Shown in pieces: positions 8,128 to 25,479 of a stretch of 64,000 nucleotides of DNA (position 1 is the stretch's first letter; each line of letters begins with the position of its first letter). The position numbers were made by a program, and so were the translations under genes. This DNA comes from Salinihabitans flavidus (GTDB taxonomy: Bacteria > Pseudomonadota > Alphaproteobacteria > Rhodobacterales > Rhodobacteraceae), in NCBI RefSeq assembly GCF_900110425.1, contig NZ_FODS01000009.1, positions 1-64,000 on the forward strand. Reading direction: 5' to 3'. The notes below the pieces were generated by a model. That model saw only the letters and a list, made by a program, of their open reading frames with translations, was not told where the DNA came from and ran no database searches.

Positions 8128-8739
8128 TCAGGTTCCGACCAGCAGCTTGAAAGCAATGATCCACATCACCAGCGCAATGAGAGTCTCGAGGATGCGCCAG
8201 GCCGCCGGCCGCTCGAACACCGGGCGCAATTTGATGGCACCGTAGCCGAGGGCCAAGAAGAAGACAAAGGATCCGAGGATCGCACCGACCGCGAACGACC
8301 CCAGGCGGTCGGCAAACTGGGTGGAGATGGTTCCCAGTAGGACAACCGTGTCGAGATACACATGCGGGTTCAGCCAGGTGATGGCGAGGCAAGCCACCAG
8401 CGTGCGGAACAGATCGGTCACTGGCAGCGACGCATCCGCGGCCAGTGCCTCGTTCGACCGCAGCGCTGATAGGACGCTCTTCACGCCATACCAAATCAGG
8501 AAGGCCGCGCCGCCGTAGCGCATGATGGGCTCGAGCCAGGGCAACCACTCGGAGACGGTCCGGAAGCTGGTCACGCCCACGGTGATCAGGATCGCGTCCG
8601 AGATTGCGCAGGCGAGACAGACCGCCAGGACGTGCTCACCCCGCAGCCCCTGCCGCAGCACGAAGGCGTTCTGGGCGCCAATCGCCACGATGAGGCTGAG
8701 GCTCATCATCATGCCGGTGAAGAAGACTGAGAGATCCAT
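8128..8739 (-). CDS. argO: LysE/ArgO-family amino-acid exporter
   Basis: A 203-residue membrane protein with IVAIGAQNAFVLRQGLRGEH at its N-terminus, the classic LysE/ArgO signature (GAQNAF). Six hydrophobic segments are visible. ArgO exports arginine and lysine-like amino acids. It is divergent from an ArgP-like LysR regulator 95 bp away, the same partner that activates argO in enteric bacteria, which supports the name. I chose the ATG at 8739 with GGAG upstream; the frame continues to 8799. Confidence 0.88.
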   Translation of the reverse strand: MDLSVFFTGMMMSLSLIVAIGAQNAFVLRQGLRGEHVLAVCLACAISDAILITVGVTSFRTVSEWLPWLEPIMRYGGAAFLIWYGVKSVLSALRSNEALAADASLPVTDLFRTLVACLAITWLNPHVYLDTVVLLGTISTQFADRLGSFAVGAILGSFVFFLALGYGAIKLRPVFERPAAWRILETLIALVMWIIAFKLLVGT

Positions 8740-8833
8740 GTGCTGGGCTCCGATCTGAACGACTGCCCTTGGCATATGCGGTCGACTTAGCTTAGACAAA
8801 TTAAAGGCACTGATGCCAATGAAGGAAAACTGA

Positions 8834-9742
8834 ATGGTGGTGGACTACGCAGCTCTCCGGACCGTCGCCGCGGTCGTCAGGACCGGCAGCTTCGAACGCG
8901 CCGCCGCCTCTCTCAACGTAACCCCGTCGGCTGTCTCGCAGCGCATCAAGCATCTCGAGGAACGCCTCGGCGCAGTGCTCATCGAACGCGGCACGCCATG
9001 CACCGCCACGGACAAAGGCCTTGCGCTCTGCCGGCACATGGACCGCGTGGGGATGCTCGAGAAGGAGCTCATGGAACAGCTGCCCGAGCTCTCCGGGTCT
9101 GAAGGTGCCGGGCAGCGGGTGACCCTCAACGTGGCCACGAACGCCGACAGCCTCGGGACCTGGTTTCTCGAGGCCATCGCCTCCTTCACCAAGGCCACTG
9201 ACTATCTCGTCAATGTCGCCATCGACGACGAGGACCATACGGCCGACTGGCTCCGCCGCGGCCGAGTGCTTGCTGCCGTCACCTCGCTGGAACGCGCCGT
9301 CCAGGGATGCCGTGTCACGCCACTCGGCTCGCTCCGCTACCAAGCGACAGCGAGCCCGGACTTCGTTGCCCGTTACTTCCCCGACGGAGTCACGGAGGAG
9401 GCGTTTCAGCGCGCGCCCGCTCTCACCTTCAACCAGAAGGACCGACTCCAGGACGTCTGGGCGCGCGAGGTTTTCGGGCACGACATGTCATTCCCCACTC
9501 ATTGGCTCCCATCGACACGGAGCTTCCTCGAAGGCAGCGTCGCCGGTATGGGGTGGGCCCTCAATCCGGTCCAGCTCGCGAGGCACCATCTCGAACGCGG
9601 AGATCTCGTCGAGCTTGTCCCCGGAAAGGTGTTGGAGCGGCACCTCTTCTGGCAGATCAACCGGCTGGCCGCCGACCAGCTTCACGAACTGTCCCGGTCC
9701 ATTCTTTCAGTAGCGCGGCGCGAGCTCAGCTCGCAAGCATGA
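8834..9742 (+). CDS. argP: LysR-family regulator, ArgP/IciA type
   Basis: A 302-residue LysR regulator. The N-terminal winged helix reads SFERAAASLNVTPSAVSQRIKHLEERLG and the effector-binding domain starts near residue 95. The sequence following the helix (LGAVLIERGTPCTATDKG) and the length match ArgP, the lysine/arginine-responsive activator of the exporter argO. Its divergent position next to the argO-type gene at 8128-8739 strongly suggests it controls that operon. Confidence 0.9.
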   Translation: MVVDYAALRTVAAVVRTGSFERAAASLNVTPSAVSQRIKHLEERLGAVLIERGTPCTATDKGLALCRHMDRVGMLEKELMEQLPELSGSEGAGQRVTLNVATNADSLGTWFLEAIASFTKATDYLVNVAIDDEDHTADWLRRGRVLAAVTSLERAVQGCRVTPLGSLRYQATASPDFVARYFPDGVTEEAFQRAPALTFNQKDRLQDVWAREVFGHDMSFPTHWLPSTRSFLEGSVAGMGWALNPVQLARHHLERGDLVELVPGKVLERHLFWQINRLAADQLHELSRSILSVARRELSSQA

Positions 9743-11409: not shown

Positions 11410-14400
11410 TCACTCCCGATCCAACACCTTGCGCAGCTTCAGGGCAAGCTGCTCACGCCGGTATGGCTTGCTCAGGAGTTCGACGCCCGGATCAAGCTTG
11501 CCATTGTGAACAATAGAGTTTTCCGTGTAACCCGACGTGTAGAGGACCTTAATATCGGGGCGCAGCTGGCGCGCGGCATCGGCCACAGCGCGCCCGCCCA
11601 TCCCGCCGCGAATGACAACGTCTGTAAAGAGAAGGTCTATCTCGGAAACCTGTTGCAGAATTTCGAGTGCTTCGGCCCCCGCTGACGCCTGGAATATCCG
11701 ATATCCAAGTCCCCTGAGCTGCGCGACGACATGTTCGCGCACGAGCCCGTCATCTTCCACGACCAGGATCGTCTCCTCTCCTCCGGCGAACTTTCGGTCT
11801 GCACTGTTGAACTGAATCCCGTCTTCCTTGGCCCACGAACGTGGAAAGTAGAGCTTGAAGGAGGTGCCTTCGCCAATTTCAGAATAGACCCGGATATGGC
11901 CACCTGACTGCTTCACGAAACCGTAGACCATGCTGAGCCCGAGCCCCGTGCCCTGGCCGAGCTCCTTGGTGGTGAAGAAAGGTTCGAAAACTCGGCCGAC
12001 GAACTCAGGTGGAATACCAGGGCCGGTATCGGTGACCACGATCAGCACATATTGCCCAGCCTCGACGTCCAGTTCGCTAGTCACATACTCGTCATCCAGC
12101 GTGGCATTGGCCATCTCGATGGTCAGTGCACCACCTTCTGGCATCGCATCGCGGGCATTCAGGGCCAGGTTCAGAAGCGCGGATTCAAGCTGGCCGGGAT
12201 CAATTTGGGTTTTCCACAAGCCGCCGGAGCGCACGATCTCGATTTCGATATTCTCGGGCAATGTGCGCCGCAACAGGCTGTCCATTCTCTGGATCAACTG
12301 GCTGACATCCAGCACCCGCGGCTCCAATGTCTGCTTGCGAGAGAAAGCAAGAAGGCGGCTGGTCAGCTCGCCCCCCCTTAGAGCGGCATTTGCGGTCATC
12401 TCTGCCATGGCGTAAAGGCGCGGCTGTCTTTCCAGATTTTCAGACAAGGCTTCGGCATTGCCCAGGACAATAGTCAGCAGGTTGTTGAAGTCATGCGCGA
12501 CACCGCCGGTCAGCTGGCCCACAGCCTCCATCTTTTGGGCCTGACGCAGCCGGTCCTCCAACTGCAGGCGCTCGGAGATATCGGTCATGCTGCCAAGCAC
12601 ATGGGTCACGCGACCGTTTTCATCGCGAACAACGAAGCCGCGGTCCTCGACCGTCGCCCAACTGGCATCGGCGCGCTGAAACCTGAATATCTCTTGCAAG
12701 ACATCTTTCTGTTCGGTTCGCAGGGCCTCGAAGGCTTCCGTGGCGCGCGCCCGATCATCGGGGTGAATCAGCTCACGCCACGCGGTCGGCGTGCCGTCGT
12801 CCCGGTATGGCGCATGCCCGTAGATCTCCTGCATGCTTTCGCTCCACCAGAGGCTGTCGCGGTCGATGTCCCATTCCCAAACAGCACTGCCTGTGGCCTT
12901 GGCGACGAGGCGAAAGCGCGCTTCATTGGTGCGCAACGCCTGTTCGGCATACTTGCGTTCGGTAATGTCGCGCTCGATAGCGACCCAATGCGTGAACCAT
13001 CCTGTTTCATTGGCCACTGGCACGATCTCCAGCTCCAGCCAGAATTCCTCGCCCGCCTTGGTGTAGTTGATCAGTTCAGAGCGCACGGGCTCCCATTTCT
13101 CCATGGCGCGGCGGATACGGTCGAGCTCATCACGCTGCGTCTTTGGGCCCTGCAAGATACGAGGCGTCTTGCCTATCACTTCCTCGCGGGAGTAACCCAT
13201 GCGTCGTTCGAAAGCATCGTTCACATACACGATCTTCGGCCCATCAGGGGCGTCAAAAGGTTCTGCCTCGGTGATGAGCAAGATGTCGTTCAGGTGTGAC
13301 GTGGCAACATCCAGCAGGCGCAATTGTTCGTCGCGGGCGCGCTGTTCGGTGACATCCCGGAAGTAGACCGCCAGCCCTCGGGGCGTTGGATCCGCGTCGA
13401 TCTCGAACCATGTCCGAAGCGCCGGATAGTATTCCAGAAACCGAATTCTCCGTCCGCCTGCGATCGCGAGCTCGTAATGCTGTTTAATGTTTCCGACAGC
13501 GTCAGGAAACTCTTCCCACACAAGCTTGCCAAGAATCTCCTCCCGTTTGCGTTGAATAAGACGCTCGGCCTGACCGTTCACGAAAACGAAGCGCCAATCG
13601 CTATCGAGCAGATAGAACGCATCGCTGATGCCTTCGAGCGTTTCTACGAGACTGTCGCTCAGTTCGTTGGCCTTTTGCTGCGCGGCAACATGTTCGGAGA
13701 TGTCCTGAAAAGACCCTTGAATGGCCACGATATGGTCGGCTTCATCGCGTTCCGGCTCGCCGGTCGCACGAACCCAGAGCCTGCGCCCTTTTGCACTTAT
13801 TATTTCAAGCACCTCGGAGTAAGGTTTGCCCTCGTTGAGACAGGCTTGGAACAAGGTCGTAATTCGGTCCCTGTGTTCCGGGGCATAGTATCCGATGCCT
13901 TGTTCTGCGGTTGGTGAAAACCCTTCCGGTTCATCGTGGATTCGGGCGGTCTGGCGTGACCATTCCAGCCGATCGGAAGCTATGTCGTATCGCCACGCGC
14001 CAAACTTCGCCGATGTTCCCGCGATCTCGAGCAATCGTTTTGTCCGCTCCAGGTCACGGGAAGTTGCTTCCTCGCGCACGAGCGCGGCCTGCGCGGCCCC
14101 TTCGGCGACGACGAGGCGCGAGACGTCTCGTGCTGCAATGAGTTCAGCACGACGACCATCATGGGTGATTGTGTGCCCGGTGATGTCCACGTGGATTACC
14201 TGGCCGGACTTCAGGCAATGTCGCCACACCCCTGACTCACCGCGACCTTCGTTTACCGCGGCAACGTCCTTTTCCAACGCGGCACGATCCTCCGCAGGGC
14301 GGATATCTGCGATCGTCATCGCCAGAAATTCCTCGCGGCTGTATCCGTATTTCAAGATTGCTGAATTGTTGACCGCAAGGAAGCGCAATGTCTGCAGATC

Positions 14401-14457
14401 ATATACCCACATTGGGTCTGGGTTGGACATGAAGAGGCTATCGGCGGCTAAGTTCAA
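11410..14457 (-). CDS. Hybrid sensor histidine kinase with five PAS domains, one LOV-like without cysteine
   Basis: A 1015-residue cytoplasmic kinase without membrane segments. PAS domains lie near residues 5-113, 140-258, 268-372, 378-502 and 512-632. HisKA follows with phospho-acceptor His655 ([11 protein letters not shown]), then the ATPase domain (N-box [16 protein letters not shown]-boxes DTGPGIPPE and [11 protein letters not shown]) and a C-terminal receiver with Asp946 (LLFTDVV). The fourth PAS resembles LOV ([17 protein letters not shown]), but the motif normally GxNCRFLQ reads GKTPRILQ at 429-436, so the adduct-forming Cys is Pro432. It could still bind flavin or act by redox. No separate response regulator is adjacent; a BLUF gene lies 630 bp upstream. 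Confidence 0.92.
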
Positions 14458-15088: not shown

Positions 15089-15616
15089 TCAAAAAAGTCT
15101 ATGCAGACGCCGGTCAAGGCCGGCCAATGGGTTGCTTTCCACCATCCGCGGTGAAACGTGATCTTCATCAAGCGGTTTTGACTTCGGGACTGGCCGGTGG
15201 GTCAGGTAATCACTGAGCGCATCCATGAAGCAGGTTACATCTTCTTCGGACCAACCGAAGGGGTCGAACCGTGACAACGACAGGTGTGGGACCAATTTGA
15301 GACCACGCAATGTCTGATCCTGCGTGACCGCGGCGGTCATGGACCAGTCAGGGAACCAACGATCATCCAGTTCCTGCACTGTCAGAAGCTTGATCCTGCT
15401 ATGGCGCGGATCGTGGCAAATCCGTCCAAAAACATCCCGAATTTCGCTTGCACCGCCTTCAAGCCACTGAAGATACGTGCTGTTGTCGTAGACGAGGGCG
15501 CCAGTAAGAGCATCGCGTTCGTTGTTGTGGCGAGCGATCTGAAGAATTTCATCGGTCTGGTCGAACGAGAAATTCGCCGGCTTGGAACAATAGGCCAACC
15601 CCACAAATCTTGTCAT
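15089..15616 (-). CDS. BLUF-domain blue-light photoreceptor
   Basis: A 175-residue flavin-binding light sensor. The BLUF core covers residues 1-95: Tyr9 (GLAYCS), Asn31/Asn32 (ARHNNERDALTGAL), Gln50 (YLQWLEG), and Trp91/Met93 (PDWSM) stand at the spacing of AppA Tyr21, Asn45, Gln63, Trp104 and Met106, so photochemistry should be intact. A tail of about 80 residues follows, too short for an enzymatic output, so it probably signals by protein contact like other short BLUF proteins. I start at the ATG at 15616; the frame runs to 15655. The nearest partner candidates are the PAS kinase downstream and the winged-helix/TPR regulator upstream. Confidence 0.92.
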   Translation of the reverse strand: MTRFVGLAYCSKPANFSFDQTDEILQIARHNNERDALTGALVYDNSTYLQWLEGGASEIRDVFGRICHDPRHSRIKLLTVQELDDRWFPDWSMTAAVTQDQTLRGLKLVPHLSLSRFDPFGWSEEDVTCFMDALSDYLTHRPVPKSKPLDEDHVSPRMVESNPLAGLDRRLHRLF

Positions 15617-16137
15617 GCCAATCTGCCTTCCTGCCATTTTATCGCAAGGCGTCATGCGCCCCGCATTTTGGTTTTGGAGTGTGGGAAATAACTCTTTGAT
15701 CGAGACGGCGAAATGAGAACCACGCTTGAATTCAGACGATGTCCCACCCTCAACACGCTGTCAAACGAACACAATCAAGGGTAGTAGTTGGTCAAGTTGC
15801 GCACCTAAAGGTCGATTTGCTATCTGAGGATCGTGACTCCTGGGCGCCCTAAGCGCCTCTGACGACGACCCCGCTGTGCGGTCCGCACACCGGATCAACC
15901 CAGCAGATGATCCAGCACAATGCTTGGCCAATCAGGCTGGCTGAGGCGCTCGCTGAGCACCTAGCGCCTTGGAAAGCGCAAGACCGGAACGTGCGGCCGC
16001 GACCCTTTCAGCGGCCCTGTAGAAATTGACCTCGTCATCTCCGGCTATGGGAGCTACATGATCCCGGCGTCGTGTGGGGCGCGACCAATGTTGCCTGCTC
16101 AGGGCGCTGCCGAGCTTGAACCGACCGCTTTCATCCA
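15617..16137. other. Gene-free stretch between BLUF and the winged-helix/TPR regulator
   Basis: About 520 bp with only short frames that look like chance. I see no RNA gene or repeat shared with other gene-free regions. The BLUF promoter should lie in its left part. Confidence 0.4.
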
Positions 16138-21389: not shown

Positions 21390-21940
21390 ACACCCCAAAT
21401 TTTCCTGTCTGAGCAGGTCCTGTGGTCACTGCATATTTTTGTGGCCCGATAGTGGATGCGCCGCGCGTATTGCGCGATACTCTCTCAGCCGCCTATCTGG
21501 TGGGGAGGTTCTGGCGGATCAACATAGAGCTGGTCAACCGGCCTGCCCATGCGGTCAGGTGTTTCCCGAGCGAAATTCTGACTATCTGCTTTTTTGACAA
21601 TATGTTCGGACTTTGGGCTGACATGGAACCGCATGGTAAATGACAGTGTTATTAAAAGAAGTCACCAGCCGATACTTCCTACTCCGCTGACATGGCACAC
21701 GCAGGAAGCTCGCAGATCCAGCCATACAACGCCTGTTGAAAATCTTCACGACAGGTAAACCATACCGCCAAACAGCGAGCCATCGCTCAGAAAGTAATAC
21801 AAGATTGAACACGCCGGATCAGATTGCGGACATTCAGCGTGTGACTGTTTGCCGAAACTTGCGAGCATGATTGCCAAGCCTCTGTAATCGAAAAGAGCCT
21901 TCGGTCGTCGGCCGCGACTCACGCGAAAGGCCTGTTCTTG

Positions 21941-22657
21941 ATGGAATCAGTAGAAACCGCTTCATCGTTGCTGTCTCTCCCACTCTCGGGCGATCTGCGG
22001 GCGCGGACGGCATCGCTTCACGATCAGGCAGAAGCTCTGCTCGGGTTGCCGGAGAGCATTGCCGATAGAGACGAGTATGCCGATTGGCTCGCGCATTTTC
22101 TGGCGTTCTACCATCCTCTTGAACGCGCTTTCGGGGCTTTCTCGAAATGGGATATACTCAAACCATTCTCGGCGAAATCCACTCATTCCCAACGGCTGAT
22201 CCGCGACCTCGGTGCACTGGGTTTCGACGTGCGCGCATTGAGTCATGCCCCCAATGCGAGAATTCCGGCGCTGCCGACCTTCGCCTACGCCCTGGGTGCG
22301 CGATATGTTCTGGAGGGATCAGCGCTCGGGGGAAAGGTGATCTTGCGAAATCTGCAGCAACGGATCGGAGCGGAGATCGCCGGAGCGACTGACTTTTTCG
22401 GGGGCGCCGAGCCTGCTCCGTCGTCGGATTGGCGGGTGTTCAAGAAGGCCCTCGATCGCTTTGGCGATCAGCGCCCGGAGAGCTGCGACGATGTCCTGAT
22501 GGGAGCAGAGGAAACGTTTCGCGCCTTGCTGGGCTGGTTTGAACCGTTCGTTGTGAAAAAGAAGAATATGGTGCAGTCCCCATACTGCGGAAACAGCTTG
22601 AAATTGGCGACGGCTGATCCGCCGAAGTTTCTTGAACCTGTTGGAGCCCGGAAGTGA
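21941..22657 (+). CDS. bphO: Bacterial heme oxygenase (phytochrome-associated BphO)
   Basis: A 238-residue helical enzyme that opens heme to biliverdin, CO and iron. The proximal histidine region LRARTASLHDQAEALLG and the later YVLEGSALGGKVIL (the G-x-x-x-G distal helix) are the family signatures. The start is the ATG at 21941; a TTG directly precedes it. It overlaps the phytochrome gene by four bases (GTGA), so both are translated together and the product biliverdin becomes the chromophore of the neighbouring photoreceptor. Confidence 0.93.
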   Translation: MESVETASSLLSLPLSGDLRARTASLHDQAEALLGLPESIADRDEYADWLAHFLAFYHPLERAFGAFSKWDILKPFSAKSTHSQRLIRDLGALGFDVRALSHAPNARIPALPTFAYALGARYVLEGSALGGKVILRNLQQRIGAEIAGATDFFGGAEPAPSSDWRVFKKALDRFGDQRPESCDDVLMGAEETFRALLGWFEPFVVKKKNMVQSPYCGNSLKLATADPPKFLEPVGARK

Positions 22658-25479
22658 CTGCTGCAGTGCCCGCGAACAGCCCTGTGGATCTGGCACGTTG
22701 CGAATGGGAACCGATTGCTACCCCCGGCGCAATCCAGCCACATGGGGCATTGCTTACGGTGGTTTATGATAACGGGCTGATTGCGCATGCAAGTGCCAAT
22801 CTGGAGGAGGTTCTTGGTTCCACACCAGCGTCCGTCCTTGGCCAACCGATTGAAAAGGTGATTGGTAGCGTCAGCGAGATCGTTCAGCGCGAGATACTGC
22901 TGCCTGGCTCTCAACCTCTGCAATCATCTGTCCAACTCCGCGATCCCAAGGGAATTCCGCTGCAGCTTCACGCCTTCCGATCAGGCCGTTATGTCTGCAT
23001 TGACATCGAAGCCGTCCACCCGACTGAAGAGAGAAGGCACGTCGGTCTCGCCCAGTCAATCATTGAGAGCTTTTCTGCCGCGCTGACTCAGAACGATCTT
23101 TGCAAACTGGCCGTGCGCGGTTTGAAGGAGGTGACAGGCTACGACCGCGTGATGGCCTATCGCTTCGGCGAGGGCGGACATGGCGAGGTCATCGCCGAAT
23201 TGTGCAATCCGGGGATCGAGTCCTATCTGGGGCTTCGCTATCCCGCCTCGGATATTCCACAAATCGCGCGCGCGCTTTACCTGCGCCAGCGCGTGGGCTC
23301 AATTGGGAATTCGTCTTACGAACCCGTTCCGCTTTTCGGGCATCCCGAACTTGATGACGGGGTGCCGCTGGATTTGACCCACAGTAATCTGCGCAGTGTA
23401 TCGCCGATCCATCGTGAATACATGCGCAACATGCAGACCGCCGCAAGTCTCACCATTGGCCTCGCGGATGGTGAACGCCTTTGGGGAATGCTGGTTTGCC
23501 ATCATTCGACACCGAAGGTGCCCGAACCCGAACAAAGATCCAACGCGGGCACGATCGGCCAAGTCGTCTCTCTGATGCTGAGCAGCCTGGGGGAGGCAGA
23601 AACCGCCCGGCAAAAACTCAAGCGGCAAGCGACGCTATCCGTTCTCGTGGAAAGGCTTGCAACGCAGGATACGTTGACCGAGGCGTTCGCAGGCGCAAGT
23701 GCCGAGTTGCTTGAACTTGTCGATGCGACCGGTGCTCTGGTGCGGCTGTCAGGAAACGTCTTGCGCCTTGGCATTCTTCCCCCACCCCGCGTCATCGAAA
23801 GGGCGCTCGCGATGGCCATGCCAAGTTCAGACGCTGACCCTCTTGGCGTGGATGATCTTGGGCTGCGTCATCCGGACCTCGCGTCTTGCGTGGCCGACGG
23901 AAGCGGTGTGCTGGTGCTTCCGCTCGCTTCGGGGGGCGACGACCTGATTGCCTGGTTCAGACCCGAACAGCACCGCACGATCACGTGGGGCGGAAGTCCG
24001 ATCGACCACGCGACATGGGATCCAGCCGAGGGTCGGATGCACCCTCGCGCCTCTTTCGCCACCTGGAAGGAAACCGTTTCCGGTCGATCCAGTTCCTGGA
24101 CCAGTGCCGATGTCAGCCTGGCACTGGCACTTCGGCAAGAAGTCGCAGCTGAAATGGCAATGCGCACGAGCGCTGAATTGGCGAAACTGAGATACTATGA
24201 CCCCCTGACCGGGCTTGCCAACCGCAGTTTGCTGCAAGAGGAGCTGACCGCCTTGCAGACGACATCCGGGCCGGGTGCGTCGCTCCTGTTTCTCGACCTG
24301 GACGGTTTCAAAGCCGTTAACGACTCCATGGGGCACGACATTGGCGACGGTTTGTTGATCGCAGTTGCACAACGACTTGTGAACGCCGTGCGCCCGGACG
24401 ATCTGGTTGTCAGGCTTGGCGGAGACGAGTTCGTCGTTCTCTGCCAAGGTGTGGATCTGGTTGCGACAAAAGGGCTTGGCGAAAGGCTGCGGCAGGTGAT
24501 CGACGAGCCGTTCGAAATCGCAGGCCATTGGTGCCATGTGTCGGCCAGCATCGGCATCGCCGACACCTTCATGCTGGGCGACCTCGACTTGGTGCAGGCG
24601 GCCGACATCGCCATGTATGCCGCCAAGCAGGATGGCGGTAACCGAAGCCAGTTGTTCGCGCCGGGACTTCATGAAATAGCCGCGCAGCAGGTCACGTTCA
24701 ACCACGATCTCCGCGAGGCGCTGGCAGATGATCAGTTTGTGCTGGTATACCAGCCGGTGTTCACCCTGAAGCCGGACGGAGACGTTTTGAACGGGTTCGA
24801 GGCGCTGTTACGGTGGGAACACCCCAAAAATGGCACGCTGTCGCCAGACCGCTTTATTCCGATTGCCGAGAAACTGGGCCATATCCATCCAATCGGCGAC
24901 TGGGTTCTGGCGACGGCAATCCGGCAAGCGCTGTCCTTTCGCACGATTTGCCCCGATCTTGACCTCACGATCTATGTCAACGTATCGCCTTTGCAGCTTG
25001 CCCATCCCGAGTTGGTCGCGGGAATGCGTGAGATCTTGCAAAGCGTGCCGACGTTTCCGCCACAGGCGCTTTGTGTCGAGGTCACTGAAAGTTTTGCAAG
25101 CGACACAATCGTTGTGGACGCTCTCGCTGAAATCCGCGCATTGGGTGTGCGGGTCGCAATCGACGATTTCGGCACGGGCTTTTCTTCGCTCTCCAACCTT
25201 CGCCGCCTGCCGGCCGACAAGGTCAAATTCGACGGCACTTTCCTGAGCGAATTGACCACCAACGGCAAGTCAGAAGGATTCTTCAGCATTTTGAACCAGT
25301 TGATTCACTCAACGAACATGACCGTTGTTCAGGAAGGTATCGAGACGCAAGAACAGCTAGATTTCGTGCGCGCCGCCGGTGCCGATATGGCCCAGGGTTT
25401 CTTCTTGTCTCTTCCCTTAACCGTTGAGGATGCGACACAACTCACCCACGAGCATGGTCGGCGATTACTTCTCAAATAA
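22654..25479 (+). CDS. bphP: Bacteriophytochrome with GGDEF and EAL output domains
   Basis: A 941-residue red/far-red photoreceptor starting at GTG. PAS (1-125) carries the biliverdin-linking Cys16 (DLARCEWEP). GAF (about 140-310) has Tyr169, Asp200 in YPASDIP, His253 and His283. PHY (about 320-510) has the tongue motif PRASF at 463-467. GGDEF follows with the catalytic motif at 589-593 and the inhibitory I-site RPDD at 580-583, both intact. EAL has E716-A717-L718, DDFGTGFSS and VVQEGIE, so it may be bifunctional in c-di-GMP synthesis and breakdown. It is coupled to bphO. Light probably tunes c-di-GMP and thus surface life or motility. Confidence 0.95.
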   Translation: MTAAVPANSPVDLARCEWEPIATPGAIQPHGALLTVVYDNGLIAHASANLEEVLGSTPASVLGQPIEKVIGSVSEIVQREILLPGSQPLQSSVQLRDPKGIPLQLHAFRSGRYVCIDIEAVHPTEERRHVGLAQSIIESFSAALTQNDLCKLAVRGLKEVTGYDRVMAYRFGEGGHGEVIAELCNPGIESYLGLRYPASDIPQIARALYLRQRVGSIGNSSYEPVPLFGHPELDDGVPLDLTHSNLRSVSPIHREYMRNMQTAASLTIGLADGERLWGMLVCHHSTPKVPEPEQRSNAGTIGQVVSLMLSSLGEAETARQKLKRQATLSVLVERLATQDTLTEAFAGASAELLELVDATGALVRLSGNVLRLGILPPPRVIERALAMAMPSSDADPLGVDDLGLRHPDLASCVADGSGVLVLPLASGGDDLIAWFRPEQHRTITWGGSPIDHATWDPAEGRMHPRASFATWKETVSGRSSSWTSADVSLALALRQEVAAEMAMRTSAELAKLRYYDPLTGLANRSLLQEELTALQTTSGPGASLLFLDLDGFKAVNDSMGHDIGDGLLIAVAQRLVNAVRPDDLVVRLGGDEFVVLCQGVDLVATKGLGERLRQVIDEPFEIAGHWCHVSASIGIADTFMLGDLDLVQAADIAMYAAKQDGGNRSQLFAPGLHEIAAQQVTFNHDLREALADDQFVLVYQPVFTLKPDGDVLNGFEALLRWEHPKNGTLSPDRFIPIAEKLGHIHPIGDWVLATAIRQALSFRTICPDLDLTIYVNVSPLQLAHPELVAGMREILQSVPTFPPQALCVEVTESFASDTIVVDALAEIRALGVRVAIDDFGTGFSSLSNLRRLPADKVKFDGTFLSELTTNGKSEGFFSILNQLIHSTNMTVVQEGIETQEQLDFVRAAGADMAQGFFLSLPLTVEDATQLTHEHGRRLLLK

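Follow-up and report, generated by a model that had tools for sequence, protein, structure and literature searches.

Is a LOV-like PAS domain with proline in place of the photoactive cysteine a light sensor that has lost its chemistry, or a sensor of another kind? This question is raised by a hybrid histidine kinase in the window, the whole stretch of 64,000 nucleotides of Salinihabitans flavidus DNA that was analysed. Its open reading frame (11410-14457; 1015 aa, TTG start) lies, with all its features given below, on the minus strand and encodes, according to Pfam, several PAS domains, HisKA (12331-12519; aa 647-709), HATPase_c (11839-12201; aa 753-873) and a receiver domain (11434-11769; aa 897-1008). 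The domain in question, a Cys-free LOV-like domain at 12943-13305 (aa 385-505), is called PAS4 as the fourth of five PAS-like segments counted by eye (Pfam and TIGR00229 recognise four), and is followed by a PAS_3 domain (12589-12849; aa 537-623, Pfam). A sequence-only reading had placed a LOV-like PAS domain at 12955-13305, by translation aa 385-501 of the kinase, with the motif GKTPRILQ and with Thr431 and Pro432 in it. This was correct: GKTPRILQ (13150-13173; aa 429-436) occupies the place of GXNCRFLQ and reads G429-K-T431-P432-R-I-L-Q, with the Pro432 codon (13162-13164) at the column of the LOV adduct cysteine. With no cysteine in this column, an adduct photocycle is excluded for PAS4.

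By alignment, PAS4 has roughly half of the polar flavin contacts and lacks the rest. Arg433, Gln436, Arg449 and Asn464 are retained, and their roles in the pocket are ones that we take over from the YtvA and phototropin structures. Asn464 lies with Tyr465 in a 12-residue segment at 13039-13074 (aa 462-473), and the Arg449 codon (13111-13113) falls, by the column counts, on the FMN-type Arg column that holds Trp in FAD-type PAS domains. Arg449 was placed on the Arg/Trp column of PMC10468136 by our own alignment. The departures from YtvA are Thr for N61, Leu for N104 and Glu for Q123: by translation and family alignment, Leu474 (Leu474-Glu475, 13033-13038) sits at the second conserved LOV Asn column, and Glu495, within WVAIERDIT (12961-12987; aa 491-499), at the LOV Gln column. 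The sequence-only reading had been silent on these two residues in the same pocket. As a LOV photoreceptor, PAS4 thus falls short both in the adduct Cys of GXNCRFLQ, where it has Pro432, and in the combination of N94, N104 and Q123, where Asn464 is present and Leu474 and Glu495 deviate.

The LOV-like character claimed for the domain was borne out by phmmer, a comparison of two profiles, Foldseek and superposition of a predicted model. LOV domains were top-ranked for PAS4 in a phmmer search of the PDB (E 5e-21; best 60 listed of 152 sequences matched), and the NCBIfam YtvA-family and blue-light-kinase profiles scored it at 95.6 and 93.1 bits, the curated cut-offs of 250 and 450 lying far above. 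A family profile built from 65 sequences matched the four LOV chains with printed alignments at 111.5-112.3 bits, from one domain each; its top-ranked PDB chain was MmoS 3ewk, whose 128.7 bits come from two domains (69.8 and 57.1). The two-profile test set equal-sized profiles of 23 LOV and 23 Trp-bearing NPR domains against each other. PAS4 scored 112.2 bits with the LOV profile and 82.1 with the NPR-type profile, about 30 bits apart, and the LOV profile scored higher in 94 of 95 domains of its family (defined below; median +30.4 bits, lowest -0.9). The medians were +74.5 for LOV rows and -75.5 for NPR rows, values that include the rows used in building the profiles and so are not independent, and 4 of the 28 NPR-motif rows scored higher with the LOV profile.

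A structure prediction had been proposed as a check, and the resulting AlphaFold model of PAS4 (mean pLDDT 90.3) has the LOV/PAS fold. It fits flavin-binding LOV structures at 1.0-1.1 Å, as seen with most CagFbFP entries (105-107 residues, Z 18.7-19.0), and the CagFbFP variants Q148D and Q148E at 1.7-1.8 Å over 108 residues. Q148E (6ywi; 1.7 Å over 108 residues, Z 18.7) carries Glu at the Gln column, and its presence among the fold matches indicates that Glu at this place is structurally tolerated. The best 50 of 549 Foldseek matches to the model (E <= 0.001) were LOV entries. The PAS domain of the EAG1 channel nearly equals LOV as a match (6pby, Z 18.4; 4hoi, Z 18.0); it is described in excerpts of PMC10468136 as a LOV relative in which polar flavin-binding residues have become hydrophobic. 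Because this domain is also among the structure matches, the fold alone is no proof of a cofactor.

PAS4 belongs to a family that we call xPR. Relatives were sampled from genome contigs as the best 80 of 171 confirmed stretches, ranked by likeness to PAS4 (the structure alignment took in 64 of these 80 loci and the window), and further relatives came from the source genome, from other genomes and from 80 short stretches of additional genomes; since sampling went by likeness to PAS4, the conservation counts apply to near relatives. A profile search of 235 loci yielded 292 distinct PAS domains of at least 85 aa, comprising 95 xPR domains, 50 with Cys and 147 others. An xPR domain was defined by [TSAP]-P at the Asn-Cys columns, Q/H at Q66 and G at G67, which PAS4 has, and the working signature is G-x-[TS]-P-R-x-L-Q-G...N-Y. 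Pro at the Cys column in 95/95 is true by definition of the group. The columns of N94 and Y95 played no part in the definition and are Asn and Tyr, respectively, in 95/95. Furthermore, Arg occupies the R63 column in 88/95, and the Q66 column holds Gln in 92 and His in 3. The N104 column is mostly hydrophobic (Leu 49, Val 22, Ile 13, Asn 3; n=95), and the Q123 column has Glu in 57, Gln in 37 and His in 1 of the 95. Among the 50 Cys domains, the N61 column is Asn in 41, Asp in 8 and Ser in 1, the N104 column Asn in 45 and the Q123 column Gln in 41. When the 122 columns of the non-redundant family (62 domains) were ranked by conservation, with the first six ranks tied at zero variation, Pro432 was 3, Asn464 5, Gln436 12, Arg433 21, Thr431 35, Glu495 46, Arg449 83 and Leu474 102.

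The family is widespread, with members in Pseudomonadota, Verrucomicrobiota, Cyanobacteriota, Bacteroidota, Acidobacteriota and others, although many are MAGs and some names are doubtful. Identity to PAS4 is 54-88% across phyla among the best 80 of 171 by likeness, the nearest relatives being from Lutimaribacter (88%) and Salinarimonas (85%), and the Lutimaribacter locus encodes an orthologue of the 1015-aa kinase with 86% identity over 1012 aa. Among 61 related genomes, 12 gave matches at E <= 1e-20, some of them non-xPR. In the source genome, the search returned two xPR copies, on the contig of the window (C37) and on contig C63, with two weak matches on contig C71. The C63 domain (9319-9696) is 48% identical to PAS4, reads TPRMLQGP and lies in a 1127-aa open frame. 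The YtvA profile found the same two copies in this genome; no Cys-bearing LOV domain was found there, and the strict NCRFLQG pattern was absent. Across 398 genomes of the phylum, strict DNA patterns for TPRxLQGP and NCRFLQG, which miss Ser and other variants, were present in 8/398 and 41/398, respectively, and together in 0, with a single match for the backward-read control; as ~0.8 genomes with both would be expected by chance, this zero overlap is uninformative on exclusion. A separate Cys-free LOV-like group of PAS domains (L171, L182, L183, L192 and others) reads KPGxxLQG with NY and forms its own group in the tree described below (99/95).

We then compared PAS4 with the known types of flavin-binding PAS domain. 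It shares with LOV domains (YtvA, CagFbFP, Brucella LOV-HK) the predicted fold, at 1.0-1.9 Å in the best rows, the LQGP loop and the NY motif, and with YtvA the equivalents of Arg63, Gln66, Arg79 and Asn94. It differs from these LOV domains in lacking Cys, with Thr-Pro for Asn-Cys, and in the two residues at N104 and Q123. According to excerpts of PMC10468136, FAD-PAS domains are marked by Trp/His/Asn and FMN-PAS domains by Arg/Cys/Asn at matching places within one clade, and 57% of the LOV cluster has Cys. By our own alignment PAS4 has two of the three FMN marks, Arg449 and Asn464. It has Arg449 where the FAD type has Trp in helix F, and Asn464 matches the conserved flavin Asn of that type, homology again being set by our alignment. 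At the Arg/Trp helix-F column, Arg or Lys is found in 72/95 xPR and 43/47 LOV domains, and Trp in 23/28 NPR-type domains. The FAD-PAS domains of NifL, MmoS, Aer and RmcA resemble xPR in their conserved flavin Asn and in belonging to signalling proteins, and their NPR-type relatives have Pro, but they carry Trp where xPR has the FMN-type Arg, together with LQGP and NY. In LOV-side PAS cluster 11, as excerpted from Xing et al. 2023, Cys is missing in ~43%; PAS4 likewise has Arg and Asn without Cys, and the xPR family may belong among the members of the published LOV cluster that have no Cys.

Cys-less LOV-like domains are already known, and the xPR family, judged from its sequences, has its own signature and falls outside the published Cys-less criterion. 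For LOV* domains, Yee et al. 2015 (PMC4682037) ask that no fewer than 9 of the 10 remaining conserved residues be kept, and name nine (G59, N61, R63, F64, L65, Q66, N94, N104, Q123). PAS4 has 5 of these nine; the 95 xPR domains have 3-6, and none exceeds 6, the 47 LOV domains 6-9 and the 28 NPR domains 4-7, so on this list, taken by itself, xPR scores no higher than ordinary PAS domains. Haloarchaeal BAT-LOV* (PMC4682037) and the Lake Diamante archaeal LOVs (PMC12202551) have, in the excerpts, Pro at the Cys column as PAS4 does. The last-strand Gln is absent both from PAS4 and from the LOV receptors of Dietler et al. 2022 (PMC9098866), but the latter set, as excerpted, consists of putative LOV photoreceptors in which a charged residue at that place is largely absent, whereas xPR has Glu in 57/95. 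EAG/KCNH potassium channel PAS domains share with PAS4 a LOV-related fold without a Cys photocycle; unlike them, xPR keeps Arg433, Gln436 and Asn464 and sits in a bacterial kinase. A search of literature text with a 26-letter protein string and with PRMLQG gave no match, and no description of the xPR family was found in the titles, abstracts and main-text passages surveyed on Cys-less, LOV-like, flavin-PAS and phytochrome-PAS9 domains.

The domain had been described as one with the photoactive cysteine replaced by proline, and this probably has the direction of change wrong. Pro is family-wide in xPR, where it is part of the definition, and it also occupies the Cys column in 58 of the 147 other PAS domains, some of them xPR-like or of KPG type; NPR (23) is the commonest three-letter motif among these 147, and farther PAS domains have mixed residues at this column. 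The Thr that precedes Pro in the family precedes Cys in 0 of the 50 Cys-bearing domains, so that there are no Thr-Cys intermediates among them. A comparison of close homologues for a reversible Cys-to-Pro change, also proposed at the outset, showed none, Lutimaribacter and Salinarimonas both having Pro. We built a tree of 130 rows and 118 columns (36 of 95 xPR, 39 of 47 LOV, 9 KPG, 28 NPR and 18 others) from which the two trait columns were left out; it is unrooted, its bootstraps were unsettled (0.907) and its rows and columns are too few, and a few of the 28 rows that count as NPR by motif, the basis of the grouping, look xPR- or LOV-like in it. The 39 LOV rows formed one group, which took in three rows lacking Cys but none of the xPR rows, with support of 96/91 for 41 of the 42 rows and 90/31 for the whole group. 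Forcing PAS4 inside this group, a set fixed after the tree was seen and including the three Cys-less rows, was 44 log units worse and marginally rejected (p = 0.037). In the best tree the xPR rows fell into more than one clade (7 changes), but neither a single xPR clade (p = 0.181) nor a joint clade of xPR and LOV (p = 0.128) was rejected.

On whether the relatives belong with ordinary PAS domains or with LOV, a point on which the sequence-only reading had hung its claim, the evidence is divided: the family, PAS4 included, lies outside the group of Cys-bearing LOVs in the best tree, but its profile is nearer LOV in 94/95 and the listed folds are LOV. The simplest reading, for which the tree is too weak a proof and behind which stands no rooted reconstruction, takes Pro as the earlier state and Cys as gained once on the way to LOV, because Pro is present in the NPR, KPG and xPR groups. 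The three Cys-less domains nested in the LOV group (L124, L170 and L119) are probable secondary losses of Cys. Two of them read HPR with both LOV Asn intact, unlike PAS4, and are candidates for a true Cys-to-Pro change.

Since Pro is the mark of the widespread family that includes PAS4, a chemical or redox sensor is more probable here than a light sensor that has broken down. As a tentative first choice, we read PAS4 as an xPR member on the LOV side of the flavin-binding PAS domains, most likely a redox sensor with a flavin nucleotide. Judged on its residues, flavin binding is plausible, and redox sensing and the signal path we infer. Arg433 and Arg449 (to the phosphate), Gln436 and Asn464 would hold the flavin nucleotide; its reduction would protonate N5, upon which the last-strand residue (Glu or Gln495) would rearrange, and the change would pass through the C-terminal helix to the next PAS domain and on to the kinase and receiver. 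This reading is favoured because the best PDB neighbours in sequence and structure are LOV domains, including CagFbFP Q148E, because Asn464 and Tyr465 are invariant and Arg433 and Gln436 nearly so, because the FMN-type Arg column is mostly Arg or Lys in xPR and Trp in NPR, and because BAT-LOV*, which has Pro, binds flavin and alters its conformation when this is reduced (PMC4682037). In AxDGC2 and RmcA, an Asn whose homology to Asn464 is our assumption is needed for FAD binding (PMC12540587, a review), and in YF1 with its Cys present, most Gln replacements, Glu included, leave light signalling largely unimpaired (PMC9098866, excerpt).

Nearly as likely is that PAS4 holds no flavin but another small ligand or none, and is a relay or dimerisation module between upstream sensors and the kinase, as EAG PAS or MmoS PAS-B may be by analogy. 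For this and against the flavin redox reading, N61, N104 and Q123 differ in PAS4, and EAG1 PAS matches the model almost equally; likewise, in excerpted reports, MmoS PAS-B, which has Pro in the Cys column, holds no FAD (PMC8534201), and PA0285 PAS2, whose Trp and Asn made FAD binding plausible, showed none (PMC10874727). Against the flavin reading, too, the N104 column is one of the most variable in the family, Arg449 is conserved to a moderate degree only, and the nine-residue list sets xPR no higher than NPR-type domains. For a relay, in six cyanobacterial proteins the domain follows a phytochrome module, whose signal it could just pass on. Against a relay, the invariant Asn464-Tyr465 and the conserved Arg433 and Gln436 point to a conserved polar ligand, and the identity across phyla among the best 80 of 171 seems high for a passive linker. 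In LOV domains, the residues matching Arg433, Gln436 and Asn464 face the flavin. Signalling by photoreduction, for which Cys-less Vivid and YF1 are precedents in excerpts of PMC4682037 and to which nearby photoreceptor genes and phytochrome fusions in relatives lend some colour, appears improbable for PAS4: it could work only with a bound flavin, photoreduction of the natural, Pro-bearing BAT-LOV* is slow, and a Gln to Leu change in Cys-less Vivid stopped light-induced dimerisation (both PMC4682037, excerpts). That PAS4 is a former LOV photoreceptor whose Cys was lost in its own lineage, the original picture, is very improbable and already disfavoured. Its LOV-like profile and fold would fit, and probable secondary losses do exist among the three Cys-less rows of the LOV group, but the spread of Pro over several phyla (within a group defined by it), the lack of Thr-Cys intermediates and the marginally rejected placement inside LOV argue against it.

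LOV photoreceptors have been proposed to derive from Cys-free redox flavoproteins (PMC4682037 and PMC9098866, in excerpts), one of the two adding that the ancestor was also without Gln. A widespread, conserved family with a LOV-like fold, a Pro that is common in other PAS domains and a partial flavin pocket makes this proposal testable. That xPR is a living representative of such a Cys-free, often Gln-free redox flavoprotein ancestral to LOV, conserved as a sister redox sensor that sometimes stands behind phytochromes, is a rather unlikely reading; if it were true, some kinases would read red light and redox state together. If xPR members bind no flavin, they would caution against calling every LOV-like PAS domain a flavin sensor.

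The sequence-only reading had also set the kinase beside true photoreceptors, and these are indeed present in the window. A gene for a BLUF-domain protein (15089-15655, minus strand; Pfam E 5.5e-25) lies on the kinase's strand, 0.6 kb upstream of it, and a heme oxygenase gene directly followed by a bacteriophytochrome gene (PAS_2-GAF-PHY-GGDEF-EAL) occupies 21938-25479 on the plus strand. BLUF as a conserved partner of the kinase was rejected: no blastp match to it was found in the ORFs of at least 80 aa in the 235 loci, whose flanks are up to 6 kb and many shorter, in a search run without a positive control, and because of this the adjacency looks local. In 6 of 79 xPR loci, all cyanobacterial (L040, 4081-7557; L038, L048, L049, L050 and L058), a phytochrome sensor (27-30% identity over ~500 aa) precedes the xPR domain, which lies between the PHY region and the kinase; the one that was scanned with Pfam, L040, reads PAS_2-GAF-PHY-PAS_3-xPR-PAS_4-HisKA-HATPase. 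A phytochrome-like ORF lies nearby in four more of the 79 (three Porticoccus, one Haliea). With perhaps three independent cases and an unmeasured background rate, this association is a lead and not evidence. Just downstream of the Lutimaribacter kinase orthologue a KaiC-like ATPase is encoded next to a PAS hybrid kinase (L005:8068-12177, minus strand), and in the window, divergent genes for a LysE-type translocator and a LysR-type regulator are found at 8128-9742.
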